A stretch of DNA of 64,000 nt, from the NCBI GenBank assembly GCA_903813345.2, contig CAIIXF020000003.1:3810109-3874108 (forward strand). Reading direction: 5' to 3'. The position numbers and the translations under genes are program-made. Source of the DNA: Owenia fusiformis. Lineage: Eukaryota; Annelida; Polychaeta; Sabellida; Oweniidae. Of this stretch, positions 1,090 through 62,322 are shown piece by piece. Position 1 is the stretch's first letter; every line of letters starts with the position of its first letter. The notes under the pieces were generated by a model. The model searched no databases and was not told where the DNA came from. It was given only the letters and a program-made list of their open reading frames with translations.

Positions 1090-1443
1090 GTAAGTTGACA
1101 ATGAGCCACAAGCTAGAACCCATTTTCATGTAATTTCTGAGAAAACTTGTAATTGTTAAAATTGTTCTCAAATACAAACTGATTTGAAAAAAAACTGTCG
1201 CTCATTGCTTGGTATATGATTTTCACCTTATTTTAACTGGATTATTTAAAATGTACCATTTATTATCTCATTCAGATGTATTATCTCATTCAGATGTATT
1301 ATCGTATTATTTGGAATGTATCATCCTCTTACTTTCAATGTAATATCCTTTGGTTTCAGACCATCACTAATTTGTTTATCATCATACTATATCATATTTA
1401 TAATTATAATTAATCATAATAAAATTTCAGATGCATCATCGCC

Positions 1444-25286: not shown

Positions 25287-27296
25287 TATTATGTCACCAC
25301 CAAAAGTGGTGACATATTGTTATGGTCTCCGTTTTTTTGCGACGGCGTCCGGCGGTTGGTGGTTGGCGTCCGGCGGTTGGTGGTTGGCGTCCGGCGGTTG
25401 GCGTCCGGCGGTTGGCGTCCGGCGTCTGTAACAATTTCTTACAACTTCCTATAACTTAACAAATACTGTTTAGACTGACTTCAATTTTTTTCTAAATCAT
25501 CTACATGTTCTAAGAAGTTCAAATCTGACTTTAGATTTGACATTTGACCTTCAATGACCTTAAAAAGGTCAAAAAGGTCTTTTTTCAACTTGCTTCACAT
25601 TGACTAATTTTTTTTTCAAAATCATCTACATGTTCTCAGAAATTCAAATCTGACTTTAGATTTGACATTTGACCTTCAAATCTGACTTTAGATTTGACAT
25701 TTGACCTTCAATGACCTTCTCGAGGTCAAAAAAGGTCAAAAAGGTCTGTTTTCAACTTGCTTCAAATTGACTAAATTTTTTTTTCAAAATCATCTACGTG
25801 TTCTCAGAAATTCAAATCTGACTTAAGATTTGACATTTGACCTTCAATGACCTTCTCAAGGTCAAAAAAGGTCAAAAAGGTCTGTTTTCAACTTGCTTCA
25901 AATTGACTAAAAAAAAATTTCAAAATCATCTACGTGTTCTCAGAAATTCAAATCTGACTTTAGATTTGACTTAAGATTTGACATTTGACCTTCAATGACC
26001 TTCTCAAAGTCAAAAAAGGTCAAAAAGGTCTTTTTTCAACTTGCTTCAAATTGACTAAATTGTTTTTTCAAAATCATCTACATGTTCTCAGAAATTCAAA
26101 TCTGACTTTAGATTTGACATTTGACCTTCAATGACCTTCTCAAGGTCAAAAAAGGTCAAAAAGGTCTGTTTTCAACTTGCTTCAAATTGACTAAAATTTT
26201 TTTTCAAAATCATCTACGTGTTCTCAGAAATTCAAATCTGACTTAAGATTTGACTTATGATTTGACATTTGACCTTCAATGACCTTCTCAAGGTCAAAAA
26301 GGTCAAAAAGGTCTGTTTTCAACTTGCTTCAAATTGACTATTTTTTTTTCAAAATCATCTACATGTTCTCAGAAATTCAAATCTGACTTTAGATTTGACA
26401 TTTGACCTTTAATGACCTTCTCAAGGTCAAAAAAGGTCAAAAAGGTCTGTTTTCAACTTGCTTCAAATTGACTAAAAAAAATTTCAAAATCATCTACGTG
26501 TTCTCAGAAATTCAAATCTGACTTTAGATTTGACTTTTGACCTTCAATGACCTTCTCAAAGTCAAAAAAGGTCAAAAAGGTCTTTTTTCAACTTGCTTCA
26601 AATTGACTAATTTTTTTTTTCAAAATCATCTACATGTTCTCAGAAATTCAAATCTGACTTTAGATTTGACATTTGACCTTTAATGACCTTCTCAAAGTCA
26701 AAAAAGGTCAAAAAGGTCTTTTTTCAACTTGCTTCAAATTGACTAAATTTTTTTTTCAAAATCATCTACATGTTCTCAGAAATTCAAATCTGACTTTAGA
26801 TTTGACATTTGACCTTCAATGACCTTCTCAATGTCAAAAAAGGTCAAAAAGGTATTTTTTCATCTTGCTTCAAATTGACTAAATTTTTTTTCAAAATCAT
26901 CTACATGTTCTCAGCAATTCAAATATGACTTTAGATTTGACATTTGACCTTCAATGACCTTCTCAAGGTCAAAAAAGGTCAAAAAGGTCTTTTTTCAACT
27001 TGCTTCAAATTGACTAATTATTTTTTTCAAAATCATCTACATGTTCTCAGAAATTCAAATCTGACTTTAGATTTGACATTTGACCTTTAATGACCTTCTC
27101 AAGGTCAAAAAGGTCAAAAAGATCTGTTTTCAACTTGCTTCAAATTGACCAAATTTTTTTTTCAAAATCATCTACATCTTTTCAGAAGTTCTAATTTGAC
27201 TTTACAAGTTCTCAGAAATTCAAATCTGACTTAAGTTTGAACTCATAATATTGTGAGCAACTAGGTGGTGACATTTTGTCATGTTAATGCCTTGTT
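25287..27296 (+). mobile_element. 2-kb element with a roughly 134-bp satellite core (family E, long copy 1)
   Basis: The left end is a perfect stem-loop, TGTCACCAC-CAAAA-GTGGTGACA (25,292-25,314), followed by repeats of CGTCCGGCGGTTGG. The core is about a dozen tandem units of roughly 134 bp, each with CATCTACATGTTCTCAGAA, TGACCTTCAATGACCTTCTC and CAACTTGCTTCAAATTGAC. The right end is GGTGGTGACATTTTGTCATG then TTAATGCCTTGTT, which also contains a small palindrome. A second long copy is at 49,951-51,435. No coding capacity. The layout resembles tandem-repeat-bearing non-autonomous elements known from bivalves (for example pearl or Helitron-like), but assignment is inference. Confidence 0.85.
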
Positions 27297-34042: not shown

Positions 34043-37000
34043 GTGAGTTGAATTTTGGAAATATTTTCACGATCGTTTCCTATTTCGATTTGAATAGATG
34101 ATTCGCAATATACTGCAAGTATTTTCACAACGCAATGATAAACATATATGCTTACATCAGTGCTATATGATATTTAGTGTGTTATATGCTGTTATGTTGT
34201 AATTTTGAATTGTAAATAATATGCAAAAATTGAAAAATCCTCCCCTTTTTCCTCATCGATATTTTATTTGATCTATCGCACGATGTTTTCAATAAGAAGT
34301 AAATGGATAATTGTTGAAACGCATGGAGACCCATATTTTTATCTTGTAAATCCAGCATGCTTTTATAAGCTTTTTACTGTACAACATTTCCATTCTCTAA
34401 AATATTTTTGGGTCACTGTATGGTACATGATGGGAAATAGTATCGAAATCTTCGAGGCTTCATCCAGCCCAGCCCAACCTCCACCGATACCCTTAGAACA
34501 TTGAAGCCCAGGCATACAAGTTACTAGTACTTACTCTAGTCTCTAGCCAATTCTTGGCTAGAAGTAATTTCATCTGGAACACCGTGAACGCTTGTGAAAA
34601 TAGCTGACCAGCGTGTCATAATTTTATTGAATATTTAAGAAAAAATCGCCAGATAAATAAATCATTAATTAAAATTTGAAATCAAATTTTTGCCAGTTTT
34701 CCACATCACAATTTGAATTGCGAGTACTAGTGTCAGACATCAACGACATTTGGTCCAGTTTTCGAATATCGCCATTTTTCTTGGAGCCGTTTGTTTTAAT
34801 TTTAGACGAAATCCTGACGAAATCATGCAATATCTCATTAAGGAGCCCAGCCAGTTCCATTTCAATTCATGAAATATTAACATGGCATTTTTATTTAGAA
34901 TAAAATATTTTACAATAGTTCATGGTGTTCCAGATGGAATTACTTCTCAAGAAACTCAAGTAAGCTGGAGCAGGTACAATGGAGAGAAGCCAGGCTTGTT
35001 AGCAAATGTACTTTCAAGGACAATTATAGTAAAATGGAATACTCTATCTTGTGATGTTTTAGAGAGTGATAGCTTATCAAGTTTTAAATCTTCTGACGCA
35101 GCACTTGCAGTTATCTGTCTCCCTCCCCTTAGGCCATTTTTAACCGCCCCCTGGACTCTTTGTAATATGATTATTTTATTTCGGCCATCTACAGTTATCC
35201 CCCACAGAGGAGCAAGAAAAGCTCTTGGATGAGGCTGTTGCAGTTATCTGACCCCCTCCCCCTGGGCCATATCATATGGAGTCTTTGTAATATTATTATT
35301 CTATTTCAGCCGTCTACACCACAGTTATCCCCCACAGAGGAGCAAGAAAAGCTCTTGGATGAGGCTGTTGCAGTTATCTGACCCCCTCCCCCTGGGCCAT
35401 ATCATATGGAGTCTTTGTAATATTATTATTCTATTTCAGCCGTCTACACCACAGTTATCCCCCACAGAGGAGCAAGAAAAGCTCTTGGATGAAGCCCTTG
35501 CAGTTGTCAAGCAGCAGTCATTTCAGATGAAAAGATGTCTGGTAAGATAGACTGAATTGTTTAAAGTCTAAATAAAGTTCAGTTTAATAAAACTTTATGT
35601 CACCATTTTCATGTCACCATCCGAAATGCTGACATATTGTTATAGTCTCCAACTTTTTTTGTGGATGGCAGTCAGCATTCAGCAGATGTGTAACTAATGT
35701 AACAAATGGCAGGTGACATATTGCATGTTAGTGCCTTGTTTCCTCCTCATGTGGCTCTGTTAATAAAATTGTACAATTTTTGTTGCAGGACAAGGGCAAG
35801 TTGATGGATGGACTGAAGCATGCTTCAAACATGTTGAGTGAACTCAGGACGTCCATGCTGTCACCAAAAAACTATTACGAACTCTGTATCCTTTTATTCA
35901 CACTATTTCACTACTCAGTCCAAAGAGTATCACCAATAATCATAAATATTCTACATGATTGAGCCACCAAAGGTTTTATATTTGAATTTCCTGGCAGATA
36001 CTCATCTTTTTGAAATAATTTCTTAAGACAACAGCCTAAGAAATTAGCTTTGTCCTGTTGCTATTCAAACTTGAGTATTTTATAAATTCAAATTTAAAAT
36101 TAAAAAATTATCAATATCCACCTTAACCTATGGCAGACATGGCAATATCTGATGAACTTCGCCACTTGGAACTATATTTAGTGGATGAATTTCAGAAGGG
36201 GCGTAAAGTGGCGGATCTGTATGAACTCGTGCAATATGCTGGGAATATTATCCCCAGACTGTGAGTAGTAATTGAGATTGCACAGCTGCAATTAAGTGAT
36301 TTAATTGAAGTAGGTGGTCTTTTCACTCACGATAGATTCTGAAAATATAACTTTTTCCAATTTTTCGTAAAAATGATTTGTTATGTACATTTACATTTAC
36401 TTAGAGAAAATTACGTATTCGCTTATTTTTCCCTTGTAGTCTACTGCATGTTAGATCATTGATATCGAAATATTCATCAGTCAAAAACATCCCAGTTTCT
36501 TCGCTCAATTAACAGTAAACATGATTTCCATAATTAGCTAGGCTGGCAGTTGATCCAATGCCAGATTGGAAACCAATGTAGTAAAACCTGTAAAATGGAA
36601 CATTTCAGTTAAAGCATTCATGTCTCATGACCCATTGATTTAAAATAGATATACCTCTTTTAGTGTCACACCTCCTTAGCAAACACTTTTTTTGATCAAA
36701 TGTGTTACTTTTTACAGATTTCACTCTATTTCCAGGTTCATTGCCATTGTCAAAATGTACTGAAAATATGTACTGTTAAAAACTAAAATAAAAATCCATT
36801 AAAAATTAATAAAAAATTTCCTCTGTTGAAATACAAATGCTGTAACCATAACTGTATTTTTTGTTTCTAGGTATCTCTTAATCACAGTTGGTGTCGTGTA
36901 CATCAAAGCGAGTGAACTCTCGCGGAAGGATATCTTAGCCGATCTTGTGGAGATGTGTCGCGGTGTGCAACATCCTCTTAGGGGACTATTTCTCCGGAAC

Positions 37001-40000
37001 TACTTACTGCAGTGTACAAAAAATGTCCTTCCCGATGTAGAGGCAGAAGGGGCCAGGTATATAGAGTTAAACGTATGTAAGTGGAACACCCTTGTATAAG
37101 TGGAACACTCTTGGTTCCACTTAAAGTGTTTCACTTACAGAAGTTGTTCAACTTGGCATAGTTCACACTACATATCACTCCCCCCAGTTTTCTGCAAGTT
37201 AAAATGCTCAATTCTGCAAGTGAAATTAGTGAATTCTGCAAGAAGAAAGGGCTAATTCTGCAGAAATTCCGCGGATATTCGCGGCATTTTTTTATATAAT
37301 ATAAATAACTGTTATTAATTTATGTCTTTGTTTAACTTTCTGATGAGAACCGAAAGAAAAACTAATGGTTTTCGAACCAGTAAACGGGAAAATATCGTGA
37401 TAGTCAGGTAGTCAGTCACTACATACATGCTGCCATCTAACGGCAGAAATCAAACGATGGCGTTTAGAATTTTCACTTCGCATAATTTGGGTTATTTCTG
37501 CAAGGGATTTGACTGAAAACGTGTCAAATTGTTACAGGTAAGACTGACTTTTTAAACTTTTGGAAAATATATGGATTCTGCGGAAAATTCCGCGGAAATT
37601 GACCAAAATAGTTGATTCTGCAATTCCGCGGGCAGAGGCAAATTCCGTCCGCGCTCTGCAAACACGGAATCCTGGGGGCAGTGACATATACACTGAGAGA
37701 AATTAAAATTCAAAATTCAAAAGTTGCTCTCAAAAATAAAAAAAGTGAAACAGTCAAATAATTTTAGTTTACAGTGTCTTATTTAAACCTCTTAATAAAT
37801 AAAGGAATTTGAATTTAAAATAAATTTCCTGTATTGTCAATGTCACATTCATGCATGAATTCATGCAAAATGTGACATTTTCAATACCCCATCTCATTAA
37901 GCTATCATTTCCCTTCTATTGCAGTGAATCTGAGACTGGAACTGTAAAAGATTCTGTTGATTTTCAATACCTTATCTCATTAAGCTATCATTTCCCTTCT
38001 ATTGCAGTGAATCTGAGACTGGAACTGTAAAAGATTCTGTTGATTTTCAATACCTTATCTCATTAAGCTATCATTTCCCTTCTATTGCAGTGAATCTGAG
38101 ACTGGAACTGTAAAAGATTCTGTTGATTTTCAATACCTTATCTCATTAAGATATCATTTCCCTTCTATTGCAGTGAATCTGAGACTGGAACTGTAAAAGA
38201 TTCTGTTGATTTTCAATACCCTATCTCATTAAGATATCATTTCCCTTCTATTGCAGTGAATCTGAGACTGGAACTGTAAAAGATTCTGTTGATTTTCAAT
38301 ACCTTATCTCATTAATTAAGCTATCATTTCCCTTCTATTGCAGTGAATCTGAGACTGGAACTGTAAAAGATTCTGTTGATTTTCAATACCTTATCTCATT
38401 AAGATATCATTTCCCTTCTATTGCAGTGAATCTGAGACTGGAACTGTAAAAGATTCTGTTGATTTTCAATACCTTATCTCATTAAGCTATCATTTCCCTT
38501 CTATTGCAGTGAATCTGAGACTGGTACTGTAAAAGATTCTGTTGATTTTCAATACCTTATCTCATTAAGATATCATTTCCCTTCTATTGCAGTGAATCTG
38601 AGACTGGAACTGTAAAAGATTCTGTTGATTTTCAATACCTTATCTCATTAATTAAGCTATCATTTCCCTTCTATTGCAGTGAATCTGAGACTGGAACTGT
38701 AAAAGATTCTGTTGATTTTCAATACCTTATCTCATTAAGATATCATTTCCCTTCTATTGCAGTGAATCTGAGACTGGAACTGTAAAAGATTCTGTTGATT
38801 TTCAATACCTTATCTCATTAAGATATCATTTCCCTTCTATTGCAGTGAATCTGAGACTGGAACTGTAAAAGATTCTGTTGATTTTCAATACCTTATCTCA
38901 TTAAGCTATCATTTCCCTTCTATTGCAGTGAATCTGAGACTGGAACTGTAAAAGATTCTGTTGATTTTCAATACCCCCCTCATTAAGATATCATTTCCCT
39001 TCTATTGTAGTGAATCTGAGACTGGAACTGTAAAAGATTCTGTCGACTTTATCCAATTGAACTTTGCTGAGATGAACAAACTATGGGTCCGAATGCAGCA
39101 TCAGGGGCATTCTAGGTAATTATATATATTTTCTTGTTTGTTAGAATGTATCTTGTTTGTGAGAATGTATCTTGTTCATGAGAGTGTATCTTGTTTGTCA
39201 GAATGTATCTTGTTTGTGAGAATGTATCTTGTTCATGAGAATGTATCTTGTTTGTTAGAATGTATTTTGTTTGTGTGAATGTATCTTGTTTGTTAGAATG
39301 TATCTTGTTTGTGTGAATGTATCTTGTTTGTTAGAATGTATCTTGTTTGTGTGAATGTATCTTGTTTGTTAGAATGTATCTTGTTTGTGTGAATGTATCT
39401 TGTTTGTGTGAATGTATCTTGTTTGTTAGAATGTATCTTGTTTGTGTGAATGTATTATGTATATAATGTGTGTATGAATGTTACCTATGGTGTGTTTGAG
39501 CGTTAACACATGTTTCCTCTAATCAGTTTGACTGATGAAACTCCCTTTTTGGGGTTGATGATTTGGCTGAGTGGACTGGAGCACACTGTAAGCTAAGCCT
39601 CTGTGGCTGTAACAATCAGGTTGAGAGTTCAAGTTCGTGTTTATTCATTTAATATGGAGTATATAGTATATACCCTTTTGCCCAGAAGCCAGTAAGTAAT
39701 AATTGTTTCTCTCTAACTAGGATGAATAATTTTAGAATTTTGCTGCCGGTTTTAGCTTAGTGGGTTTGGAGGCCATTTTGAATTTTTCGATAAAAATGTG
39801 AAAGTATCACTTTGTGTCTTGGTTAATTTGCAGAGATAAAGAAAAGCGTGAACAAGAGAGACGGGAACTGAGAATTCTGGTCGGTACAAATCTTGTGCGA
39901 TTGAGTCAGCTTGAATGCGTTGACTTGGAGACGTACAGGAAGGTCATACTGCCACCTATATTAGAGCAAGTAGTCAGCTGCCGAGACCCTATAGCTCAGG

Positions 40001-43000
40001 AATATCTAATGGAATGTGTTATTCAGGTATGTAATGTAAATTATGTAAAATGTATTTAAATAGAAATTATTACAGGGTACAACGATATAATGGGGGGCAA
40101 TAATGGCATGTAGATCACCCACATTAATATGGCCTTCAACAACTACAAACACTTGAAAAAAACAATTTAAATAGTTTTAATTCAAAATGTATGAGATATA
40201 ACGTTTAAGTACACTGTATGTTATAGGTGTTCCCTGATGAATTCCACTTACAGACCCTCAACACATTCCTTCGTGCATGTGCAGATCTTCATAAAGATGT
40301 CAATGTAAAAAACATCATCATTTCCCTCATAGACAGGTTGGTATTAATGTACTCTCATACAAGGGTTGTTCAAAAAATCAATGTAAAAAACATCATCATT
40401 TCCCTCATAGACAGGTTGGTATTAATGTACTCTCATACGAGGGTTGCTCAAAAAGTCAATGTAAAAAACATCATCATTTCCCTCATAGACAGGTTGGTAT
40501 TAATGTACTCTCATACGATGGTTTTTCTAAAAGTCTGAACTCTTTGAAGTTTCACTTCAGAAAAATATAGAATTATAGCATTCGACCATGACTAATTCAA
40601 ATCATGTAATGTCTATCCTAGTGATCTTTCATCCGGATTACATGTTTCTAATAGTCCCTGGAGACTGGCTTCAGAGCCACTCTTGGTATCACACTCACAG
40701 TATAAATGTACTCTCATACGAGGGTTGTTTTAAAAATTCAAACTGAAAATATCAAATTTCAGGCTGGCACAGTTTGCCCACAAAGATGAAAGTGTAGGCA
40801 TACCATCAGAAATCCAACTGTTTGACATATTTTCCCAGCAGATCTCTACAGTTATACAGGTAGCTATAATATGTCTTTCTTCCTGACTTGAACAGTACTT
40901 CTAACTCGTAATCCCCCATACTCCCCCCTCCCCATCGCAGGTATATAAATAGAGAATGGCGTACCATCAGAAATCCAACTGTTTGACATATTTTCCCAAC
41001 AGATCTCTACAGTTATACAGGTAGCTATTATATATCTTTCTTCCTGACTTGAACAGTACTCCTAACTCGTAATTCCCCCCCCCCTCCCCATTGCAGGTAT
41101 ATAAATGGAGAATGGCATACAATCTGAAATTCAAATTTTTTCCACTTTGTTCTCAAAGATTTCAAAAATTGTAGAGTGAAAATTTCCATAACTCTTGATT
41201 AAAGATCCTTTTTAAGAACCTATTCCATTCAACCTTCATGTAGTAGTTAATTTGAAGACTAAAGTAATGGCCATTCTATTTTGTATTCATTGTATTTCAG
41301 AATCGTCCAGATATGCCACCGGAAGATATTGTTTCACTACAAGTGGCTCTTATCAACCTAGCACTGAAATGTTACCCAGATAAGACAGAATATGTTGACA
41401 AAGTATTAGAAACAACGGAGGAAATATTTAACAGATTGAACTTAGACCAGTAAGTTAGAACTTAGACCAGTAAGTTAGAACTTAGACCAGTAAGTTAGAA
41501 CTTAGACCAGTAAGTTAATTATGGTTTTTTGTTTCTGACTCACTCTATTTGTACAAGATTATTCATGGAAAAATATCAATTATTGATAAAGTTAGAGCAT
41601 ATAGTGCATTACTTCTGAGACAACCCTCGTACACTGTGATTATGAAAGAATGGATTGTTAAAATATTACCCTTGATAACACATCATGACAGGATAACTTA
41701 AGTTATTACCAAAAATAATTTGCCCCTATTCTTGTCCAAATGTGCCTACACCCCCAAAATGCAATCTGATTTTGGACGCCGTTTTGATGCCAAATTTCGG
41801 TGCCACGGCGCCAAATTGACTGACTAGTCCGGTGAGAAATTTTGGTGTCGAAAATTTTCGGTGCCGGAACAGCGCGAAATTTTTTCGATGCCAAAACGGC
41901 GCCGAATTATATTGGCTGTGTATACTCTGGTATTGATCTGATTTTCATGTCTGAAAATGATAAATATCCTCAAGCAAGTCAGCCTTTATGAAATGCAGCC
42001 AAAAAACAATAGTCATTTGAGTGGAAGGTTAATGGTTAATTGAGTCTTTTTGGTAAAACTGGAGAAAACAGGGTAACCCAAAAGTATGTTTATAGTTATT
42101 CAACAATTTTTAAACTGTAACTGTAAACCTACTCTCGGGCCACCCAGTATATCCTCACAAAGCTAAAAAATCTAGAGAGAATTGTCAGAACTACTTCAAA
42201 ATTGTATCGATTTTAACAATTTTATTCAATCGAAGAATTAACATGTTCTACTTGTTAAAAGTTTGTTACAATTTGTATTTCAGTTTGGAGCACACCACAG
42301 CAGTATCAAAGGAACTTACAAAACTTATGAAAATACCAGTGGACAACTATAACAATGTTCTTACGCTTGTTAAACTGGAACATTATGGCCCTCTCTTTGA
42401 GTACTTTGACTACACAGCCAGGAAGGGCATTAGCTGTTATATTATCAATAATGCCCTTGATAACGATACACAGATACCAACACAGGAACAGGTATGGATA
42501 TTATCAATAATGCCCTTGATAACGATACACAGGAACAGGTATTGATATTATCAATAATGCCCTTGATAACGATACACAGATACCAACACAGGAACAGGTA
42601 TGGATATTATCAATAATGCCCTTGATAATGATACACAGATACCAACACAGGAACAGGTATGGATATTATCAATAATGCCCTTGATAACGATACACAGATA
42701 CCAACACAGGAACAGGTATGGATATTATCAATAATGCCCTTGATAACGATACACAGGAACAGGTATTGATATTATCAATAATGCCCTTGATAACGATACA
42801 CAGATACCAACACAGGAACAGGTATGGATATTATCAATAATGCCCTTGATAACGATACACAGATACCAACACAGGAACAGGTATGGATATTATCAATAAT
42901 GCCCTTGATAATGATACACAGATACCAACACAGGAACAGGTATGGATATTATCAATAATGCCCTTGATAATGATACACAGATACCAACACAGGAACAGGT

Positions 43001-46000
43001 ATGGATATTATCAATAATGCCCTTGATAATGATACACAGATACCAACACAGGAACAGGTATGGATATTATCAATAATGCCCTTGATAATGATACACAGAT
43101 ACCAACACAGGAACAGGTATGTATATTATTAATAATGCCCTTGATAATGATACACAGATACCTACACAGGAACAGGTATGGATATTATCAATAACGCCCT
43201 TGATAATGATACACAGATACCAACACAGGAAAAGGTATGGATATTATCAATAATGCCCTTGATAATGATACACAGATACCTACACAGGAACAGGTATTGA
43301 TTTTGATGCGGTAAAACATCTAAGATTGCACAGTTGTAATGAACACCTTCCTACTTGGAGTTTTCAAACGTAAATGAACCCTGTTTGTAAAGAACACCTG
43401 TTTAAAAGGTTGTGTACTGTGAATATACTGTTTCCTCTTTGAACATTACTATAAAGTTGCATATGATGTCAAAGAATGTATTGTATTTTTTCAATCTTTC
43501 AATTTCAGTTCAATCTTTGGCATTCATCAACTAATTTTTCTGGCACCTAATAGTTTGTGATTTAATTGCATTATAAGTTACAAATTACAAGTTTTATATC
43601 CCTTTCAACATTTTCTGTGTTGATAAATTTTTATTTATTTTAATCATTCATTACACTATTGAGATAAAGAAAAAAAGAAAAAAATTGTAAAATACTTTTG
43701 ATATTTTATTTTCAGGTTGACGCAATCCTTGGATTGGTTGGCCCACTCATCGTGGACCAGAGCGACCAACCAGAAGAAGAGGAAGATCCCGAAGATTTCA
43801 TGGAGGAACAAGGCCTGATGGGAAGGTTCGTCAACCTGTTACTCGCAGATGATCCCGATCAACAATATTTAGTAAGTATAATCACTATATGTTGGGGCAG
43901 GGTGAGCACTCTGGGTCACGTCGTTGGGGCAGGGTGAGCACTTTGGGTCACGTCGTTGGGGCAGGGTGAGCACTCTGGGTCATGTCGTTGGGGCAGGGTG
44001 AGCACTCTGGGTCACGTCGTTGGGGCAGGGTGAGCACTTTGGGTCACGTCGTTGGGGCAGGGTGAGCACTTTGGGTCACGTCGTTGGGGCAGGGTGAGCA
44101 CTCTGGGTCACGTCGTTGGGGCAGGGTGAGCACTCTGGGTCACGTCGTTGGGGCAGGGTGAGCACTCTGGGTCACGTCGTTGGGGCAGGGTGAGCACTCT
44201 GGGTCACGTCGTTGGGGCAGGGTGAGCACTCTGGGTCACGTCGTTGGGGCAGGGTGAGCACTTTGGGTCACGTCGTTGGGGCAGGGTGAGCACTTTGGGT
44301 CACGTCGGCAATTGAGTGTTGATGATAAATCTATGGGGCATTGACCACCAGTGAGCCCATATTCTTCCTAAGTTGTATGATGATGCATAGTCGATGGTTC
44401 TATAGTCAATTGTTGAATAGTCAGTGATTGCATAGTCATCGATGATGGTACAATATAAGATCATTAACTCAATAAGTCTTTGCACTTGGTTTTTGAACCC
44501 TCACTATGATACTTAGCTCAATACGTATATATAATATTAACCCATTGAAATTTTTGGAGTACTTGTGTCACAGTTTGATGTAAAAACTGTTAACACGAAT
44601 CTCACTTTCATTTTCAGATACTGAACGCAGCGAGGAAACATTTTGGAGCAGGCGGAAATAAGCGAATAAAATACACACTGCCATCTATAATATTTGGAGC
44701 TTACAAATTAGCATACAAGTATAAGAGCATAGCAGAAGAGGTAGGTTTTACCCAGAATTATTCATAAACATTAGGGAGGTTTAATGTTACAGGTTTAAGA
44801 GAACTTAGGCGTGAACTATAGTCCTTAGCTCATTAATGACCAACCCCGAGAGATTTTTTCTATGATGTCATAATCGTATCTGACCAACACTGAGATATCT
44901 TGTCCAATATATGTCACACAATTTGTATCAATAATCCTACCAAATATTGTAGGGGTCTATTGGGGAACATGGTTGGGTGCAATTCAAATATATTGTCATT
45001 GGCTTCACAATTGCATAAAACATCGCAAAGAGGGTGTTGATACAGTCAATTTTATGCTTATATGAAAACTTGCCATTTTGCTCAATCTTTCATCAAAATG
45101 GCCAGTCACCAACAGAAAACCTCCAAAAAAGCTTTGGCCAGCAATGAGTTAGGGGATCAGTTAAAAAATAAGAAAATTAGATACAAGATTTAGAAAAATC
45201 CTGAAAAATTTCCATATACTGCCACAATTCTTAGTTAAGTGCTGCCCTCTTTACAACATGCTCAAATCTAAAACCAAATAACAATTTTTCATGTATATAG
45301 GATGAGAAATGGGAAAAGAAATGTCAAAAGATCTTCTCATTCTGCCATCAAACAATAGGAGCCCTCATCAAGGCGGAGCTAGCAGAGTTGCCATTAAGGC
45401 TTTTCCTCCAGGGTGCCGTATCTGCGGGCGAGATCGGCTTCGAAAATCATGAATCTGTGGCGTATGAGTTCATATCTCAAGTAAGTTGATATTTTGTGAT
45501 CTCTTAATGTTGTACAGTTCTGTTATTCAGTTTAAATCATTATGGCAAAAATACTCATGATGCACCCTACTCCCCATTATGCTGAGTGTTGTTGATGCCA
45601 ATTTTGAGTCAAAAATTCAACGAAATTTGGTGATGTTGGGAGAGCATTGAATCAAAGTGGATAAAGATAAAAAACTACGACTGAAATTCATTTTTCACAA
45701 TTAATCTGAAAACATAGGATCAAATCCTATGCTAAGGGCTGATGTAAAAAAGTCATTTCATTTGAGAAACATTTTCAATAATAACTCCAGACTTTTATGT
45801 CATTTTATGACAAGACACAAATACATGACATAGCAAAATGAAGGAGATTTTCTTGCTTCCTAGTGTGACATTCCAGTGAACCTTATCTTCTTACAGTCTC
45901 TACGAGCCATCTCCAGATAATAAATAAACCATCAAGCCTCATGCATTGCTTTATTCCCAGGTTTAAAATCTGTGATTAGCTTATTCATCCAAACATTCTC

Positions 46001-49950: not shown

Positions 49951-51435
49951 TTTATTATGTCACCACCAAAAGTGGTGACATATTGTTATGGTCTCCGTTT
50001 TTTTGCGACGGCGTCCGGCGGTTGGTGGTTGGAGGTTGGCGTCCGGCGTCTGTAACAATTTCTTACAACTTCCTATAACTTAACAAATACTGTTTAGATT
50101 GAGTTCAATTTTTTTCTAAATCATCTACATGTTCTCAGAAGTTCAAATCTGACTTTAGATTTGACATTTGACCTTCAATGACCTTCTCAAGGTCAAAAAG
50201 GTCTTTTTTCAACTTGCTTCACATTGACTAAATTTTTTTTCAAAATCATCTACATGTTCTCAGAAATTCAAATCTGACTTTAGATTTGACTTTAGATTTG
50301 ACATTTGACCTTCAAATCTGACTTTAGATTTGACATTTGTCCTTCAATGACCTTCTCAAGGTCAAAAAAGGTCAAAAAGGTCTGTTTTCAACTTGCTTCA
50401 AATTGACTAAAAAAAATTTTTAAAATCATCTAAGTGTTCTCAGAAATTCAAATCTGACTTTAGATTTGACCTAAGATTTTACATTTGACCTTCAATGTCC
50501 TTCTCAAAGTCAAAAAAGGTCAAAAAGGTCTTTTTTCAACTTGCTTCAAATTGACTAATTTTTTTTTCAAAATTATCTACATGTTTTCAGAAATTCAAAT
50601 CTGACTTTAGATTTGACATTTGACCTTCAATGACCTTTTCAATGTCAAAAAAGGTCAAAAAGGTATTTTTTCATCTTGCTTCAAATTGACCAAATCTTTT
50701 TTTCAAAATCATCTACATGTTCTCAGAAATTCAAATATGACTTTAGATTTGACTTTAGATTTGACATTTGACCTTCATTGACCTTCTCAAGGTCAAAAAA
50801 GGTCAAAAAGGTCTTTTTTCAACTTGCTTCAAATTGACTAATTTTTTTTTCAAAATCATCTACATGTTCTCAGAAATTCAAATCTGACTTTAGATTTGAC
50901 ATTTGACCTTTAATGACCTTCTCAAGGTCAAAAAAGGTCAAAAAGGTCTGTTTTCAACTTGCTTCAAATTGACCAAATTTTTTTTTCAAAATCATCTACA
51001 TCTTTTCAGAAGTTCAAATTTGACTTTACAAGTTCTCAGAAGTTCAAATCTGACTTTAGATTTGACCTTTGACCTTCAATGACCTTCTCAAGGTCAAAAA
51101 GGTCTTTTTTCAACTTGCTTCAAATTGACTAATTTTTTTTTCAAAATCATCTACATGTTCTCAGAAGTTCAAATCTGACTTTAGATTTGACATTTGACCT
51201 TCAATGACCTTTTCAAGGTCAAAAAGGTCTTTTTTCAACTTGCTTCAAATTTACTTAATTTTTTTTTCAAAATCATCTACATGTTCTCAGAAGTTCAAAT
51301 CTGACTTTACATTTGACATTTGACCTTCAATGACCTTCTCAATGTCAAAAAAAGTCAAAGAGGTATTTTTTCAACTTGCTTTAAATTGACCAAATTGTTT
51401 TAGGTGGTGACATTTTGTCATGTTAATGCCTTGTT
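49951..51435 (+). mobile_element. 1.5-kb satellite-bearing element (family E, long copy 2)
   Basis: Same left stem-loop (TGTCACCACCAAAAGTGGTG...), GTCCGGCGGTTGGTGGTTGG block, core of about nine to ten units of roughly 134 bp, and GGTGGTGACATTTTGTCATG...GCCTTGTT right end as the 25,287-27,296 copy. The unit number differs between copies. Confidence 0.88.
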
Positions 51436-52590: not shown

Positions 52591-54674
52591 CTAAAGATCT
52601 GTTTTCACCCCCAGACTTAGAGGTATGGCTTTCATTTCAGTCCTCATGCAGAGGTACTCTCCGACTACAGTCATAATCGCCACGCATATTAAATTGACTA
52701 GCCACCATGTTAGAGTTTGTGGGAAGGCAAGGTTATAGCACCAACATATTAGAAGATGAAAGAAATGTACTGTTGCAGTGAAGTCCAAACACTGTTTTGT
52801 CCTTTTTACTATATACCATAGTCCCAATGCACTGAAAACAAAAACATCATGTAATCTGGTAATTCAGTAATCTGGTAATTCAGTGATCTGGTAATTTCAG
52901 GTACCATTAATGATATATTTCAATTTTCCAGAAATGATTATTTAATTTTTGCTAAATAATATACTCATTGTATTTCTTATAAAACGTTATGTATTCTGGT
53001 AATTTTTGAACCTATTGTGTTTCAAGCTTAAGGTCAGGGTGCATGATGGGAAATTTTCTGCACTCCTCAATTGAGTCACATGTTATTTTTCAAACAAGAA
53101 TCACTCCTTCCCCACATTGTCTATATCTTCCAGTTTTGCACAAAGAGTGCTCTTATGTGCCTAGAAAAGACTTGTGAGAAGGATGTTTTGATAAAGTGTA
53201 TAAAAAGCAAGAAAATTCAGTGAAAAAATTCAGAAAATTTTCAGAAATTTTTTTCACTGAATTTTCTCGTTTTTTATACAATTCACAAAACAAATCTTCT
53301 CACAAGGCTTTTCTAGGCACATAAGTGCACTCTTTGTGCAAACCTGGAAGATGTAGACAATGTGGAGAAGGAGTTATATTCTTGTTTGAAAAATAACATG
53401 CGACTCAATTGAGGAATGCAGAACATTTCCCAACATGCACCCTGTCCTTAAGTGATATACAATACCTAGATGTTAAGGAATTCTGGGACTAATTAACAGT
53501 AGCGCCTATAGTTTTTAATTAAAAAATTTTCAATAAAAATTGTAATCAAGAAAACACATGTAGAGTTCATTTCACTGCTTCATTTCGTCAGTAGAACGGC
53601 AAAAATAAGAAATTGGGAGACCATTGTGCAATAATATATGGAAAAGTATATTCATAATGTACATGAATGACATTTGTATATCTTGGATTGCTTCTAGTTT
53701 GGCTTATAAAGTGTGTGGCCTCTTATATTTGGATGTTTCTCTGCCATGTTATTTTCAATAAGATTTACATGGCTGAAATTCTTCAAATTACAAGACGGCA
53801 AAGGCTTACTAAAAAATCTGAAATATACAAATGTCATTCATGTACATTATGAATACACTTTTCCATATACTATTGCACAATGGTCTCCCAATTTCTTATT
53901 TTTGCCGTTCTACTGACGAAATGAAGCAGTGAAATGGACTCTAGTAAACAAATACCGTAACTTGTTTTCTCAACCACACTTTTATATGTTGAAGGAAAAT
54001 AGGGAAGATATGTTTCAATGACAAAGAACATTAAATAAATTTTAGATGTTTTTTAGTACAGTGTACCTACCATGTTAATGCATTAAGTGCATAAGCACCT
54101 ACAAGAAGCCTCCCACTCAACCCCTTAAACTGCAGCTCCTGTAAAGGTTTAAAAATGAATTAATAAAATTTCAACATGTATATGTTTACTGGAATTCTTT
54201 TTATCTATCTGTTAATACTATATCTTTCAAAAAACTCAACCACTTAAACTGTGTCCTCCTGAAAAGTTTTAAAAATTCATTAAGATTTTAACATCTATAG
54301 TTTTACTTGGCTTTTCACCTCTCTGGCCATACCATCTCTTCCATTCAGACAATCAGTATTAGTGAAATTAAGGACACATATTTAAGATACAATAAGAATT
54401 GTGGTATTACTGTCGTACACTTGTATTTGATCGGATTTTGACAAAGATTTAATTTGGCAAAATCGTGCACATCTAAGACTTTCACACAATAGAGAACTGC
54501 AATCACCTGGTATTTAAACATCTGATCTAATGATTTATCAGCTCCAGCAATGAAGTCCATGATACAAATCCAAAATCCTAAAAGTCCATAAAAGATGCAC
54601 TGCATTGAGATTATCTGTGACACAATGAGTGTCGGGTCCCATACAAAACTACGAAATTGGCCGCTCAAAGCCAT
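52591..54674 (-). CDS. SYS1: SYS1 homologue, Golgi-localised integral membrane protein (3 exons)
   Basis: SYS1 is a small four-span Golgi membrane protein that recruits the ARFRP1 (Arl3-type) GTPase and so supports tethering at the trans-Golgi. Exons on the minus strand: 54674-54507, 54138-54071 and 52831-52591, joined in phases 0 and 2 with GT-AG junctions (CCAG/GTGATT, TTTACAG/GAG, CATG/GTAGGT, TTTTCAG/TGC). The product has 158 residues; human SYS1 has 156. Family hallmarks are GQFRSFVWDP near the start, SLDQMF at the end of exon 1, GRL...LNALTCALG across exons 2 and 3, QCLDFTATVHFFHL, LTWWLV and GEYLCMRTEMKAIPL near the C-terminus. The start is the first ATG of that frame; an upstream GTG is not needed. 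The gene is divergent to COX4. Intron 2 holds two long palindromic elements. Confidence 0.95.
52855..52905. repeat. Short tandem repeat near the SYS1 exon 3 acceptor
   Basis: About three copies of GTAATCTGGTAATTCA in the plus strand, lying within about 75 bp of the SYS1 exon 3 acceptor on the intron side. Confidence 0.75.
53027..53453. mobile_element. 427-bp near-perfect palindrome in SYS1 intron 2 (family D)
   Basis: Arms of about 205 bp (53,027 onward, starting CTTAAGGTCAGGGTGCATG; the other arm ends CATGCACCCTGTCCTTAAG at 53,453) with almost no spacer. In RNA it would fold into one long hairpin. A decayed copy is at about 32,815-33,175. Non-coding, foldback-like MITE. Confidence 0.85.
53561..53943. 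mobile_element. 383-bp inverted repeat in SYS1 intron 2
   Basis: Arms of about 118 bp (TAGAGTTCATTTCACTGCTT... at 53,561 and its complement ending at 53,943) with a spacer of about 145 bp. It stands about 110 bp from the preceding palindrome. The two overlapping 61-67-codon frames inside are artefacts of the repeat. Confidence 0.85.
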
Positions 54675-55194
54675 CACTTGATAAATGTAGTTTCCGTAAA
54701 ACTAAAAGTGACTGACAGGTCTTGCCCTCAAATCCTCGGGATTGAACTGCTGTTGTTTCGTCAAAACGTAGATCAAATATCTATTGTTGACACGTCAAGA
54801 CTCAACAAATGCGGTGTGTATTTTTCTTGTGTAGCAATTGTTTCTCTTTTGATTTGTGTGATCAAATTTTAAAATGTAACGGTAGGCTAGATCTAAAATC
54901 AAGACTAAAGATGTACTTTCCATGGAAAATGGGAATCAGATTCACAATGACTCATTTTTGATTTTTTCTGTCATTGGATTTGGATGCCACGTTTTTGTTA
55001 TCTTTTTAGTCAGTCTAGAATTGATTTTTAGAAGATTTTCTCTTTGGACGGTAACAACTATATATTCCGCATTGATTTGAGATCATTTATTTTCAATTTC
55101 ATCGATTAAATATTCCATAATCCTTTGTAACATAAATAATCTGTGTATTTTCATATTTTTTCAAATCTCGTTTTTTGACGTCATTTCCTCTTGC

Positions 55195-55255
55195 AAAGAC
55201 GAGACATCGCGAGATCTTACACTCCGCCATTTTGGATCTCGGCAGACAGAAAACG
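55195..55255 (+). promoter_or_regulatory. COX4 core promoter and non-coding first exon
   Basis: TCGCGAGA (55,207-55,214) and GCCATTTTG (55,226-55,234, the reverse of the YY1-type CAAAATGGC) lie just before a plausible donor CG/GTAATG at 55,256. Both motifs are frequent at broad, housekeeping-type start sites, and YY1-type sites are known at the start sites of nuclear oxidative-phosphorylation genes. The exact transcription start is inferred. SYS1 starts about 0.55 kb away on the other strand. Confidence 0.5.
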
Positions 55256-55740
55256 GTAATGTAACTTTTGTTTTTCAAGTATATTACGTTACTGGGACAT
55301 TATCAGATACAAAATTGTTGTCTGTTTGAAACTCTTCAATTCTCACTTCCAAGTCTCTATACTTTCGATGCGCAAGACTTTTGCATTTCTTCAGATTTTC
55401 CTATCAAAGTCGAGGAACATTTTTATTGCCGGTGGGATATTCTTGAAACTCTGTTGTCACGTACTTCACGCAGTTTATCGATTACCTTTTTTAGTACACT
55501 TTAAATGATCAAATTTGTGACATCACATTGTGAAGTTCATATTTTCATTATCAACAGCTATTCTGATGATGATATTGATGATATCTGGCTGCTGGATTGA
55601 CTGAGAGGCATTGCTAAAAAAGTCAAGGTCATTCGGTTTTTTTGAATTCACATCATGTACACATGGTCTTCGTTTTATTGATAATCACATTCTATTATTA
55701 TGCGTAAATGTTGAATCAAGTATCATATTTTCAGACAAAA

Positions 55741-58700
55741 ATGGCTCAAAACTTGGTTCGATTAGCCGCCAAGAGAATCCTCTCCATACCACAGAGATCC
55801 ATTAGCGTGACAGCAATTCGTAAGCAAGATGTGGCCCTGACACAAGAGGAGAGAGACAGAATATACCCAAGAATAGGTAAAGGATAAATAATACTTTCTG
55901 TATATGCGAAAGTTCATTATATATGTGAATGTTCATCAGACATACAAATGCACACCTATTCTTTATCTATCATTAACACTTAAGCACAAGTCAATAAACT
56001 CAGTACAAGTAAAGCTGTATATTTTTGTGTTGTCATTTTATATGAACAGGTTTGTGGTAATTTCTATATAATTTTCTCATTCAGGAGACAGAGATGTTGT
56101 TGGTTATGGATTCAACGGCACTGCCAGTTATATGGACAGAGAAGAAATGCCTTTCCCAGCCATTCGATTTAAAGAAAATACAGATGATGTTTTAGCCCTA
56201 AGAGAACTAGAAAAAGGAGACTGGTCAAACATGACTATAGAAGAAAAAAAAGCATGTAAGTGAAGTTTTCTATTGAATTATAAAAATATCTAATAGATAT
56301 TCAAGGTTTCACAATTAACATTATTTATTCAGGTTACTGTTAATTGAAATATCTGTGGTCATTATGTGATTTACACACAATTTTCTTGAGACCTATCACA
56401 CAATGTTGAATTGTTCATTCATTATACTTCAGCGAACCCTTCCAAATAGACGAGATTCACAATTTATTGTCAAGTTTCAGCTTTTGGTTAGCTGAAAAAT
56501 TCTGACATATTTCAGAGTATCATTCCACGTTTCAACACATACAAAATGAATTGCTTAAATTTTTCATTGCAGTGTACCGCTCCAGCTATAGACAAACATA
56601 TCGCATATTCACAATTTAGTGTCCAGTTTCAGCTTGTCCAGTTTCAGCTTTTGATTAACTGAAAAACTGACATATTTTGAGATTACCATTCTACCTTCCA
56701 ACACACATGAACTCAATCGTTCAATTTCATATTGCAGTGTACCGCTCCAGCTATAGACTAACATTTGCTGAAATGTTTGCACCTACTGGGGAGTGGAAAG
56801 CCGTCTTTGCTGCTTTCATGGTCTGTCTTGGTGTCACTGGATGGATTGTTATCTTCATGAAAAAATTTGGTAAGTCACTGTTTAAAAAAATTTTTTTTAC
56901 TAATTTCTTTGGTCATACTAAAAAAATTTCTTTTCTTTTTATTTGTTAGATCACATCTTATTTCTTTTATCTACGAGATTTCTAATCATTGAAATCTAGA
57001 TACACTGCATTCAGAACAACTACACTATTGTACATACAGTAAAACCTGTTTGGTGTAACACCTTCACAAGTTGAATATTTTGCAGAGTCTTGAGACACAT
57101 TAACTTATGTAAATGAACCTCTATTACTGAACCAGGTGTTTCATTTACACAGGTCAGGGGTCTCATTAGAATTTCTCAAAACAGGCTAAATAAATGAAAA
57201 CAATAGGCAAAATTAATGGAAATCATAGATTTAACATGGAAAAGTTGAAAAGGCCTTAAAAACAACAGGCAATATTGTGAAAACAATAGGTGAAAATCAC
57301 CTGTTGCCTGCTGCTAATTAAACCCCTGCAGGTTTTATTGTTTCATATTCAAAAATGTAAAATAACTGCAATTATTCATATATTTGTTATAAAATGTATA
57401 GATGTTTATTGGTGCTAATGCATAGCTTAGATATAAGGCTCACATTTCTGCTTTGCTTTCCATGTGTTTATGTTTTCAGGGGAAGAGATGAATTAAAATA
57501 TGTCACCTAAAATTGTCATATGTTTGCCCTGTTCTAGTCAATACATGGCCAACACTTAAATCCTTGTCTGTTCCCCCTTCTTAAAATAAGTTGTTCTGTT
57601 TGTGAGAACCTCTCTTCTTCTATTGATTTAGTTGCCAGAGTTTTATTGAAATGAATGATTACAAGAGATACTATTAAAAATTCTACTTATAGACTGAAAA
57701 CACTAGATTTCACTATAAATATCCTGAAAATATTCTTTAGTTCTGTTTCAAAAAAATCCAAGAACTGAATCTGTTATGTTTGACTAATTGGACTTCAATC
57801 AGCATTTCAGTTCTGAGATTTGCACCTTTGTCAAACTTACCTTAACTGTAAATGTATTGGGTAATCCCCTTGTTAGTATTCCTCTTTTTTGTTCATTGCA
57901 TGCTAAATGCCTTGCTTTATAGCAGAACAATGACTGTGGTTGTAAAATACTGATTTGTCAAATATTTTTTATAAAACTGAGTTGACTTATAAGCTTGCTT
58001 TAAATGTTTGCTGCTAGCAAGTGGGGGTTACAAAATCTATCCATGTATACAGACGTTATGGAAAGGTTTAGATTGGAGATATCCTTATGGGAATACCAAA
58101 GAGGAAACAAGAAATACTAGGCCTAGAGATATAAGAGCAGTGATCTCCCCAGGATTTTCCTCTCGTGGGTGCAAAATTCTCATTTTCACAATTCACACTT
58201 TTTTTATTTTCAAGTGGGTGCAAATGGATTTTCAGGTGGGTGGAGTCCTGTTTTTAAAATCTCAGGTGGGTTCTGCGCCCACTTGCTTTAATGCTGGGGA
58301 GATCACTGAAGAGTAAATGATTTTGTCTTGGACCCTGTGTTGTCTGAGTAAGAGATGAGTTAATGTTCCAGTTTTGGCAGTGCTTTTGTGATGCATTGCA
58401 CAAATTGCTTAACAGTGTTGTCCTTGTGACTGTCCTGCACTATGTTATACGTCAGCATAATGGTACAAACTTGGGTAATCCTTTAATCCTCTGTATGCAT
58501 CATAATGGAACAGCCGTGGTATATGCAGCATACTTGTACAACACATGCCTTGCCTGTCCTGCAGTTTGCTGTATGCTCTATAATGATGCAACCTTGGCCT
58601 GGCCTACAATGTGCTATATGAAGCGTAATGCTACAACCTTGGCCTTGCGGTCAATGTGCTATATGCAGCATAATGCTACAACCTTGGCCTGGCGTTCACT

Positions 58701-59537
58701 GTGCTATACTCAGCATAAGGATGCAAAATCATTTAGGGGCAAGGTCAAAATATTAATGTACACCCACATGTAATTACACTTGATGATGGGGCTAAAATTG
58801 ATTAGGCTTTGTCAGCCTAAATTGATTTTAAAATTCTTTGTAATGTAACACTTTTGAGGGGCATAAAGAGAAGGGTCCTATGGAATTAATTATGTATTTG
58901 GACAACATGAAAATTTTGACCTGGTCCCCTATGTTGTTAGGTCATGGTGAAAAGTCCATTGTTTTCAATATATTGACTGGTAATTACCAATCTGAAAGTT
59001 TTATATATTATACTCTTCACAACAAAGCTAAACTGTATAATGTATGGTTCAAGTTCTTTTATTCCCATGAACATTTTCCCTCACAACAGTCTTTAATGAC
59101 ACAACTACATGTAATTTGTGGAATTTTGGGAAATTGTTACCATAGTACAGTGTCTAATCAAATTAGCCCCATATTTTATGAGGAAAAACATGGAAACTTC
59201 CTTGTTTAAAGGGTCTTAAGAGCAAGTGTTTACAACAAAGTTATTATTTTTCTCTCATGTAAAATGTAAAAAATTAAACACAAATTGAATTGTTCCCTGT
59301 ATTAATTTAAGAATCAATTTTTCACCCTGGCCTACATAACATAAATCAACACTAGAGCTCCATTTCTGGTTTGTTTTTGATTTCAATCATTATCCTTTAG
59401 TGTACCCAGAATTCCCACGTACGATTACGAAGGAATGGCAGGACAAAGAATTGCAACGTCGAATCGACCAAAGACAGGGGATTGTCCTCGGTGATTCGTC
59501 TAAGTGGGACTACGAAAATCAACGCTGGAAGAATTGA
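55741..59537 (+). CDS. COX4: Cytochrome c oxidase subunit 4, isoform ending in exon 5a
   Basis: Nuclear-encoded subunit of mitochondrial complex IV, single-span in the inner membrane. Coding exons 55741-55876, 56085-56255, 56738-56869 and 59401-59537 join in phase to give 191 residues. Residues 1-25 or so form a basic, serine-containing mitochondrial presequence (MAQNLVRLAAKRILSIPQRS). YMDREEMPFP, DWSNMTIEEKKALYR and FAEMFAP...EWKAVF match COX4. The membrane helix is about 124-142 and the tail (147-191) is the intermembrane-space domain. The last exon here reads VYPEFPRTITKEW...SKWDYENQRWKN. Its acceptor is TATCCTTTAG at 59,400. A poly(A) candidate AATAAA is at 60,463. Exons 2-4 are shared with the other isoform. 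Confidence 0.93.
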
Positions 59538-61758
59538 TGTTACTTCAACCATAGCTATTTCAAATTTGTGTGAACTGTTGTTGAACCACACAAAGCACTT
59601 TTATGTATATTAGACTGTCAGTTTTAGTTGTAACACCTATGATTTAACAATTTTAATATACCTCACGCAAAAGGAGTGTGTGGATCGCTTTGAATCATCT
59701 AATTTATTTTCAAGATTGCGACATCTATGGACATAAATGAAAACCATTACCAACAGACAGTAACATCCATTCCGGCATTTCACAGAATTGTTGATCATTA
59801 TTATCATTTCAAAATTGTAATTTATTTTCAAGATTGCAAAAACTTTCTATGGCAACAGACTTCTAAAAAAAATCCAGTGTAATTATTATTTATCCAGGAA
59901 CAACAACATGCTTTATTTATACCATAACCCATATAAAAACTACAACTTTTATGATGTAGCTCTTTATCATTATAAACTCAGTTTGGGTACGGGTAGCTTG
60001 AATCAATATGTATGCTAAAATGGGTAACATTATATACACGTAATATGATTATATACATGTAATATTATTATATACACGTAATATGATTATATACATGTGA
60101 TATGATTATATACACGTGATATGATTATATACACGTGATATGATTATATACACGTGATATGATTATATACACATAATATGATTATATACACGTAATATGA
60201 TTATATACACGTGATATGATTATATACACGTGATATGATTATATACACGTGATATGATTATATACACATAATATGATTATATACACGTAATATGATTATA
60301 TACACGTGATATGATTATATACATGTGATATGATTATATACAAGTAATATGATTATATACACGTAATATGATTATATACATGTACTATGATTATATACAC
60401 GTAATATGATTATATACACGTAATATGATTTAGCAACTCTGTATCATCATAAAACCAGCTAAAATAAAAAGAATTAGTTAGAATGAGACTAATAAATTGT
60501 TTTATGTTAAAACATTTTAAAGGAAAAACAAAATAAAAACAAAACAAAACGCCATGATCAAATGGATTCCATAAGTAAAAAAACATTCAAAACCAGAGAT
60601 ACTTATAATGTCGATACTTCTAGTTTACCAAATGGAAACGATTGAAAATCATCCTTTGGAGTTGTACATCCCAAATTGTAATTCATTACTTAATAATTCA
60701 ATTTAGAAATTGCTTCATGCAAATTTGAAATACCAAGAGCATTAACAAAGGTTTGTATACATAAAGATAATACAAAATAATAGTAATATTACTTATAAAG
60801 ATAATATAAGATAGTAATATTACTAACAACATGTACTTTATTTTCTAATATCTGCACCTATGATAGTTGATGCACATAACTCTAAATTAGTTAGTTTTTA
60901 ACTTGATAATTTTCAATTTATTCATTTCTCTAGGAAATTATCGATGCATTTTATAAATGTATGTCAAAAGAGGAGATAGGTGGCGCTAGGTGGAGAAACA
61001 ACAAAACATTGAGGCTCAAGGTTGCCATGGTTACAGAAGATTATATGTATTGTAATTTTTTCAACTGCATGTACTGATTGTTTTGCAAAAGTCACTTTTA
61101 CTTTAAACCTGCTCCTAACTGCCTAAGGACAGGGTTTATTTACTTCTAAAAGGACTTTTGTGAAACCGGCAAAACTGTTCTTCAAATTTTCCTATTAATT
61201 TTCTCTCACTGTTTCGCAAATGTCACTTTAGAATTGACATTCATACACTTTGTTATTAGTGGGGCTAATCTTTAATATGGTGCTACTTAATTTGAACTTT
61301 CTGGAAATTTCGGATAGATTCAGCATTTTTAGGGGTTAAATCGCAGATCAAATTAATATATAATAAATATTAATTGGCTCTTTTGATTGGCTAAATTAAA
61401 ACACATGTGAATTATCAAATGGCATAATATAACCCTTTTCTCTATTTTATAGAGCCACTTGAACTTATGAATTACCTGTGCAAGAAGTGTCAACTATTTA
61501 AAGGCACATTTGTGAAACATTAAATTACTATTAATTGTTTTCTTTTTTTATTGGTAACCATGGTGAGAGCTTGAGCTATAATGTGTTTTACACTGTGTCT
61601 AATTGTTTCGTATTTTTTCAGTGTATTCTCCCTACCCAGAGACGATCACTCCAGAATATCAACAGAAGAATTTGGAGCGTATGATCGCACAGCGTCAAGG
61701 TATCGTGGAAGGCGTGGCTTCTAAATGGGATTACGAAAACAACCGCTGGAAGAAATAA
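55741..61758 (+). CDS. COX4: Cytochrome c oxidase subunit 4, isoform ending in exon 5b
   Basis: Same exons 2-4 as the other isoform, then 61622-61758, preceded by the strong acceptor TATTTTTTCAG. Also 191 residues: exon 5b is exactly as long as 5a (137 nt), in the same phase, and ends in its own stop. The tail reads VYSPYPETITPEY...SKWDYENNRWKK, with 29 of 45 residues identical to the 5a tail. It is slightly closer at its end to the vertebrate KWDYEKNEWKK. Poly(A) candidates AATAAA lie at 61,947 and 62,116. Because 5a has a stop, the two exons can only be used one per transcript. Confidence 0.93.
56458..56765 (+). repeat. Duplicated acceptor of COX4 exon 4 (165-bp unit)
   Basis: The end of intron 3 and the first 25 or so nucleotides of exon 4 (CATTGCAG/TGTACCGCTCCAG) occur twice, with exon starts at 56,573 (decoy) and 56,738 (real). 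After the shared part the decoy reads into TAG within 14 codons. Confidence 0.88.
57155..57328 (-). mobile_element. Family A element, copy 3, in COX4 intron 4 (TSD CAGGT)
   Basis: 174 bp in the opposite orientation to the other copies (TTGCCTGCTGCTAATT near the right end), flanked by CAGGT at 57,150-57,154 and 57,329-57,333. Confidence 0.9.
58139..58308. mobile_element. 170-bp inverted-repeat element in COX4 intron 4 (TSD AAGAG)
   Basis: Ends CAGTGATCTCCCCAG and CTGGGGAGATCACTG are near-perfect inverted repeats, flanked by AAGAG at 58,134-58,138 and 58,309-58,313. Interior GTGGGTGCAAA/TTCTGCGCCCAC words are also partly self-complementary. Confidence 0.88.
58420..58725 (+). repeat. Degenerate tandem repeat of about 57 bp in COX4 intron 4
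   Basis: Roughly five diverged units sharing CTATATGCAGCATAATG and CTACAACCTTGGCCT. The reading frame stays open for 136 codons because the unit is near a multiple of three; I do not call it a gene. Confidence 0.7.
60026..60430 (+). repeat. 19-bp minisatellite between COX4 exons 5a and 5b
   Basis: About 21 copies of GATTATATACACGTGATAT with G/A variation at the ACGTG/ACGTA position. It lies in the 5a 3' UTR (before the AATAAA at 60,463), which is also the intron leading to 5b. Confidence 0.95.
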
Positions 61759-62322
61759 GAAAAGAACTTTTAGGAAATTTTGTAATATAGACTAAGTAAA
61801 TTAACCAAAGGATGTTATAATGGATACAACTGGAACATTAACAATAGCATGTTATGTAATGGTACCCACACTTTCGAAGCATAAATTATTTGAACACCAG
61901 TTTTATTTTATGTTGCATATTTTTTATTTTTAAACTGGGTATATTTAATAAAAAGCACCCCACTTACAGACTTCAGTTGGTCAGAACAATTGGAGTCTTT
62001 TTCTCATTTTGCCAAGCACATTTTGATAAAAAATATATACAAATGAGAATACCAGTTTTTGATTGTTTTCTGTGCTTCTTTTTTCCAATATCACAAGTTA
62101 CGAAGTATCGCCATCAATAAATAATTTAAAATTATCATGTAGGCTAGAGTTGAGTATTAAACATTTAGTTACCTTGTATGAAGAGGTGTAAAATATCAAA
62201 ATTGTCTGTTCCGACATTTGAACTCCTCATGGTATGGAATCATATTCAACATAGGACACTTCTCAGGACTTCGTGTAATTTCCACATCAAGACACTCACT
62301 CAGTTACATCTAAAGTTAAAAC

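Follow-up and report, generated by a model that had tools for sequence, protein, structure and literature searches.

COX4 isoforms are a standard example of how the last step of respiration is retuned. The known COX4 pairs are each encoded by two genes and differ along the chain, which makes the role of each part of the protein hard to separate. On the plus strand of the window, i.e. the 64-kb stretch of DNA of the marine annelid Owenia fusiformis that was analysed, a COX4 gene (positions 55741-61758) carries two candidate last exons, and this raises the question of whether a single gene could produce two forms of the subunit by changing its tail only. If so, a natural swap of the intermembrane-space tail alone would set the role of that part apart from the rest, and would constitute a third route to COX4 isoform choice, beside the vertebrate and the yeast gene pairs.

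The first coding exon (exon 2, 55735-55876) encodes the presequence; its frame is open from the ATG at 55741 and it ends at a GTAAAG donor. The acceptor that would precede 55735 is read off the sequence, and the numbering allows for a putative 5' UTR exon, with a weak donor, that would end near 55255. Exon 3 (56085-56255) encodes the matrix domain, and exon 4 (56738-56869, donor at 56870) the end of this domain and the membrane helix. Two alternative last coding exons follow on the same strand, exon 5a (59401-59537; acceptor TAG, stop TGA) after an intron of 2531 nt, and exon 5b (61622-61758; acceptor CAG, stop TAA), 4752 nt from exon 4. They are in the same phase after one shared donor, each with its own stop, and the coding parts 55741-55876, 56085-56255 and 56738-56869 joined in frame to either of them give 576 nt and 191 residues. 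On recomputation, the exon coordinates, phase, acceptors, stops and number of identical tail residues given in an earlier note on this DNA were all correct. That note had described the two exons as mutually exclusive; they are indeed a homologous pair, but 'alternative last exons' is the better name because each of them ends the frame. With the 5b tail, the product is identical at every residue to P0002, the COX4 recorded for O. fusiformis. This is the sole Owenia COX4 form that we found in the protein database (one member sequence, in a database clustered at 90% identity), and this fits 5b as the main product.

Both predicted products matched the Pfam profile PF02936 (COX4, cytochrome c oxidase subunit IV) over positions 2-138 of 138, with 164.8 bits for the 5a form and 172.2 bits for the 5b form (cut-off 26), and in PDB sequence searches both matched solved subunit IV chains, 13 distinct sequences each. 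We then have the profile search of the whole assembly (498,259,871 bases, 498 Mb, in 525 contigs; 5/5 candidates scored), a search that a very divergent COX4 paralogue could escape: it gave four matches, all at this locus, namely exon 3 (52.7 bits), exon 4 (35.8 bits), exon 5a (43.2 bits) and exon 5b (51.7 bits). No second copy of the COX4 core exons was found within the 64-kb window. The matches thus lie at one locus only, and not at a pair of separate genes in the style of COX4I1/COX4I2 or COX5A/COX5B, which agrees with the single COX4 gene with two tails proposed earlier.

In subunit IV, the tail that follows the membrane helix faces the intermembrane space. Since the exon 4 junction coincides with the end of the membrane helix, the choice of the last exon would alter this tail only. 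A structure model was obtained for the 5b form only, with 84 of the 120 listed proteins (mean pLDDT 76, pTM 0.40). It contains a helix at residues 121-147 and, in the tail, a second helix (157-169) followed by two short strands around 182 and 188. In a comparison of the model with the PDB, 13 chains reached E ≤0.001, and the named ones are oxidase or supercomplex entries. The best structural matches were cytochrome c oxidase chains (E about 4e-9), with TM-scores of only 0.32-0.34 by query length; at about 0.33, the arrangement of the parts is therefore not reproduced by the model. Subunit IV makes numerous contacts with subunits I and II, according to a review (PMC5448071).

Exons 5a and 5b are identical at 29 of 45 residues (30 of 46 codons, stop included) and at 85 of 137 bases, so that 16 of the 45 residues differ. 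The differences are unevenly distributed over the codon positions (12, 10 and 30 at the first, second and third positions; chi-square p 0.0009), and the Nei-Gojobori count gave a pS of 0.86, which is saturated, against a pN of 0.26 (Fisher p about 2e-8). If either exon had drifted since the split, replacement changes would have gone far higher than this pN. All ten near-invariant tail residues (10/10) are kept in both exons. In a blastn comparison of the 1.1-kb stretches around 5a and 5b, the one match at E < 0.001 lies within the exons, and the next best one (E 0.032) lies outside them. The G+C content is 0.47 in 5a and 0.46 in 5b, versus 0.34 before 5a and 0.28 between the exons. Neutral evolution was simulated from 5b, with 20,000 runs per setting, and we counted the runs that retained an open frame, at least 29 identities and the ten near-invariant residues. 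Their proportion fell from 4.8% at 0.1 changes per site to 0.3% and 0.01% at 0.2 and 0.3, respectively; at 0.5 or 1.0 changes per site, none of the 20,000 runs retained them all. Taken from the sequences themselves, these figures indicate that 5a and 5b split long ago under protein-level constraint. They also indicate that neither exon drifted for most of the time since then and that any neutral period of 5a must have been brief and recent, because simulated neutral histories rarely keep the frame, the identities and the near-invariant residues. According to the earlier note, substitution patterns showing that one exon evolves neutrally would speak against the pair. Over the bulk of the history of the exons, pS, pN and the ten residues show no such pattern, and a short, recent relaxation of 5a is compatible with them. 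The proposal of two homologous and constrained terminal exons that alter only the tail after the membrane helix is supported by the sequence.

To see which residues distinguish the tails, we used a set of 191 proteins consisting of the 5a form, P0002 and 189 relatives (18,145 pairs); these relatives are the best-ranking entries listed out of 209 and out of 1,313 proteins and cover a minor part of the family. Each tail retains family-common residues that are lost from the other. W159 of 5a is present in 118/189 relatives and the Y of 5b at this position in 7/189, while S179 of 5a is present in 112/189 and the A of 5b in 63/189. Two residues of 5a with opposite charges, R167 and D178, sit at conserved hydrophobic positions: position 167 is M, I or L in 183/189 relatives and R in none of the 189, and position 178 is V, I or L in 181/189 and D in none of the 189. 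The R167 codon matches ATG at none of its three bases, and this points to an old substitution with later silent ones. R167 and D178 may have changed as a pair or may reflect a weaker constraint on 5a; as a matched pair, they may form a salt bridge in place of a hydrophobic contact of the tail. A third residue, L176 of 5a, had appeared unprecedented (0/119) and was dropped, the tubeworm Ridgeia piscesae (P0131) having L in the larger set.

In the same 191 proteins, the identity of the core (residues 46-146) is at least 0.90 in 33 of the 18,145 pairs, and among these the difference between core and tail identity is greatest for the Owenia pair (1.00 versus 0.64, followed by a pair with 0.92 versus 0.70). 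A pair with the same core and divergent tails was not found in a second species among these proteins, which come from a database clustered at 90% that may hide such pairs. The tail region of the 5a form (residues 145-191), used as a database query, gave zero matches; this result is uninformative, as P0002, with which the query has several five-residue words in common, was missed too.

The origin of the pair was addressed with a tree of the tails (61 of 121 rows, 45 columns). Both tails fall within one poorly resolved group of 25 rows, in which 5a adjoins P0050 (95/74) and 5b is not its sister. Grouping 5a and 5b as one clade is not rejected in this tree (p-AU 0.288), and the end branch is 0.35 for 5a versus 0.27 for 5b. 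A duplication of the exon inside the COX4 gene is a possible origin, as is something more complex.

The acceptors of 5a and 5b have 12/16 pyrimidines each, with 8 T before 5a versus 11 before 5b. The candidate polyadenylation signal of 5b is an AATAAA at 61947-61952 (plus strand), about 190 nt past the stop. For 5a, the first canonical candidates are three AATAAA on the plus strand (60463, 60491 and 60532; 60463-60537), about 925 nt past the stop, and variant hexamers occur closer to the stop, from 59655; in AT-rich DNA such hexamers also occur by chance, and all these signals are candidates. A minisatellite of 19 bp, with about 21 copies, lies between the two exons (60029-60430), and transcripts of 5a that end at the first canonical AATAAA would carry it in their 3' UTR.

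The explanation that we favour, and consider fairly probable, is that both last exons of this COX4 gene are functional and are used as alternatives, with separate 3' ends. The donor at 56870 would be joined to 5a, in transcripts cleaved and polyadenylated before 5b, or alternatively to 5b, and this would result in two proteins with a common presequence, matrix domain and membrane helix that differ at 16/45 tail residues. This explanation is supported by the same phase, the intact acceptors and stops, the single locus, a pS much higher than pN, the uneven codon positions, the simulations, the higher G+C content of both exons, the family-common W159 and S179 of 5a and the apparently old change at R167. 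The presence of only 5b in the database, R167 and D178 as residues unseen in the relatives, the distant AATAAA (about 925 nt), a donor-like site at 59987 and the failure to find the pair in a second species among these relatives count against it. We infer that both exons are used in mRNA with separate 3' ends and that their choice may affect the oxidase. The default form would probably be 5b, whereas 5a would probably be minor, conditional or restricted to certain tissues. Another explanation is that 5a was functional once and was lately abandoned, so that it would persist as a fossil exon whose frame is still intact, 5b alone being in use now. The protein database, with the 5b form alone, would fit this history, and so would R167 and D178, absent from the 189 relatives, the Pfam score of 5a below that of 5b (43.2 vs 51.7 bits) and the longer end branch of 5a (0.35 vs 0.27). 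However, the frame, acceptor, stop and all ten near-invariant residues of 5a are intact, and by the simulation 5a is unlikely to have undergone neutral change beyond about 0.1 per site, so we regard such an abandonment as unlikely.

It seems less likely again that both tails are functional with 5a as a cassette exon, whose transcripts would splice on to 5b in the 3' UTR, as suggested by the precedent of KRAS 4A/4B (PMC9882654). Scored with donor weights that are good for ranking only, the best donor-like sites between the exons are 61563 (4.7) and 59987 (2.3), the gene's own donors scoring 1.4 to 4.3. Two of the gene's four donors (1.4 and 1.6) score lower than 59987, so that 5a could be spliced to 5b. 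However, 59987 is located 450 nt after the 5a stop and 61563 just 59 nt before 5b, and the scoring between the exons revealed no good donor near the 5a stop. Finally, 5a and 5b might be the ends or the remains of two COX4 genes in tandem. Genes are often duplicated in tandem, but this arrangement is highly improbable here: the window contains no further copy of the core exons, the profile search of the assembly gave no further match to the family, and both tails are in phase to follow exon 4.

The two functional last exons that we favour resemble several known systems. In vertebrates there are likewise two subunit IV forms, one with a more restricted expression (PMC5448071); however, COX4I1 and COX4I2 are two genes whose products differ along the chain, whereas in Owenia one gene would change the tail only. 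The membrane and matrix parts of COX4-2 contain additional cysteines (PMC5448071). Yeast also has two forms of the homologous subunit, Va and Vb, with an oxygen-dependent use (PMC5448071). These forms are encoded by two genes, COX5A and COX5B, versus one in Owenia, and the exon labels 5a and 5b are only coincidentally alike. In the same review, an oxygen response of the isoforms is described for yeast and mammals and none for COX4-2 of several fish and reptiles (PMC5448071), so analogy gives no ground for assuming an oxygen response of the Owenia tails. According to this review, the oxidase subunits that are switched during development are produced by separate genes and not by alternative splicing (PMC5448071). 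Outside this family, KRAS 4A/4B is likewise a homologous pair of last coding exons giving two C-terminal ends; it belongs to a different protein family, and the pair is conserved over more than 450 million years (PMC9882654). OGDH 4a/4b are likewise homologous exons of one gene that retune a mitochondrial enzyme (PMC7969005), but they are mutually exclusive internal exons whereas those of Owenia COX4 are terminal. Of the features of the class of last exons arising by exon duplication, to which KRAS 4A/4B belongs, exons 5a and 5b show homology, same phase, own stops, a shared donor and constraint, and an origin of one from the other is possible. We found no case of COX4 isoforms produced via alternative last exons in the open-access literature, in line with the statement in the earlier note that none was known to its author. 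Two-gene COX4 pairs and paired last exons in other genes are already known; their combination appears to be new. It is possible, but rather doubtful, that COX4 isoform switching arose here independently of yeast and vertebrates, through the last exons of one gene, and that the oxidase is retuned through its tail alone, depending on tissue, stage or oxygen.

Some other features of the window are worth recording. Upstream of exon 4, a copy of the intron 3/exon 4 junction (56555-56599, plus strand) contains the acceptor and the start of the exon, 165 nt before the real one. It is 89% identical over 45 nt, and the duplication lies in the region 56455-56766. The decoy acceptor has 11/16 pyrimidines, equal to the real exon 4 acceptor, and the frame that it opens reaches a TAG after 14 codons. 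The same kind of event is seen in the VPS35 gene (35152-43301; Pfam Vps35 44.0 and 52.6 bits for two exons), in which about five exon/intron junctions lie inside tandem arrays and the real junctions were deduced from the reading frame only. One array (37911-38997) has 14 copies of an acceptor with the exon start, another (42450-43252) has 13 copies of a donor junction, and further junction arrays are located at 35152-35505, 40797-41134 and 41438-41517. Amplification across splice junctions is possibly a habit of the Owenia genome. On the minus strand, a SYS1-like coding exon (54345-54677; Pfam SYS1, 48 bits) lies head to head with COX4, and because of this orientation a common promoter region is possible for the two genes. 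Two arrays separated by about 24 kb (25675-27204 and 50311-51401) have a near-identical consensus unit of about 136 bp. Near the start of the window (region 1423-5982), a frame with a BTB domain (1423-1821) and one with C2H2 zinc fingers (2556-4841) are perhaps parts of one gene, and the latter frame runs into a 54-bp minisatellite (4800-5982).
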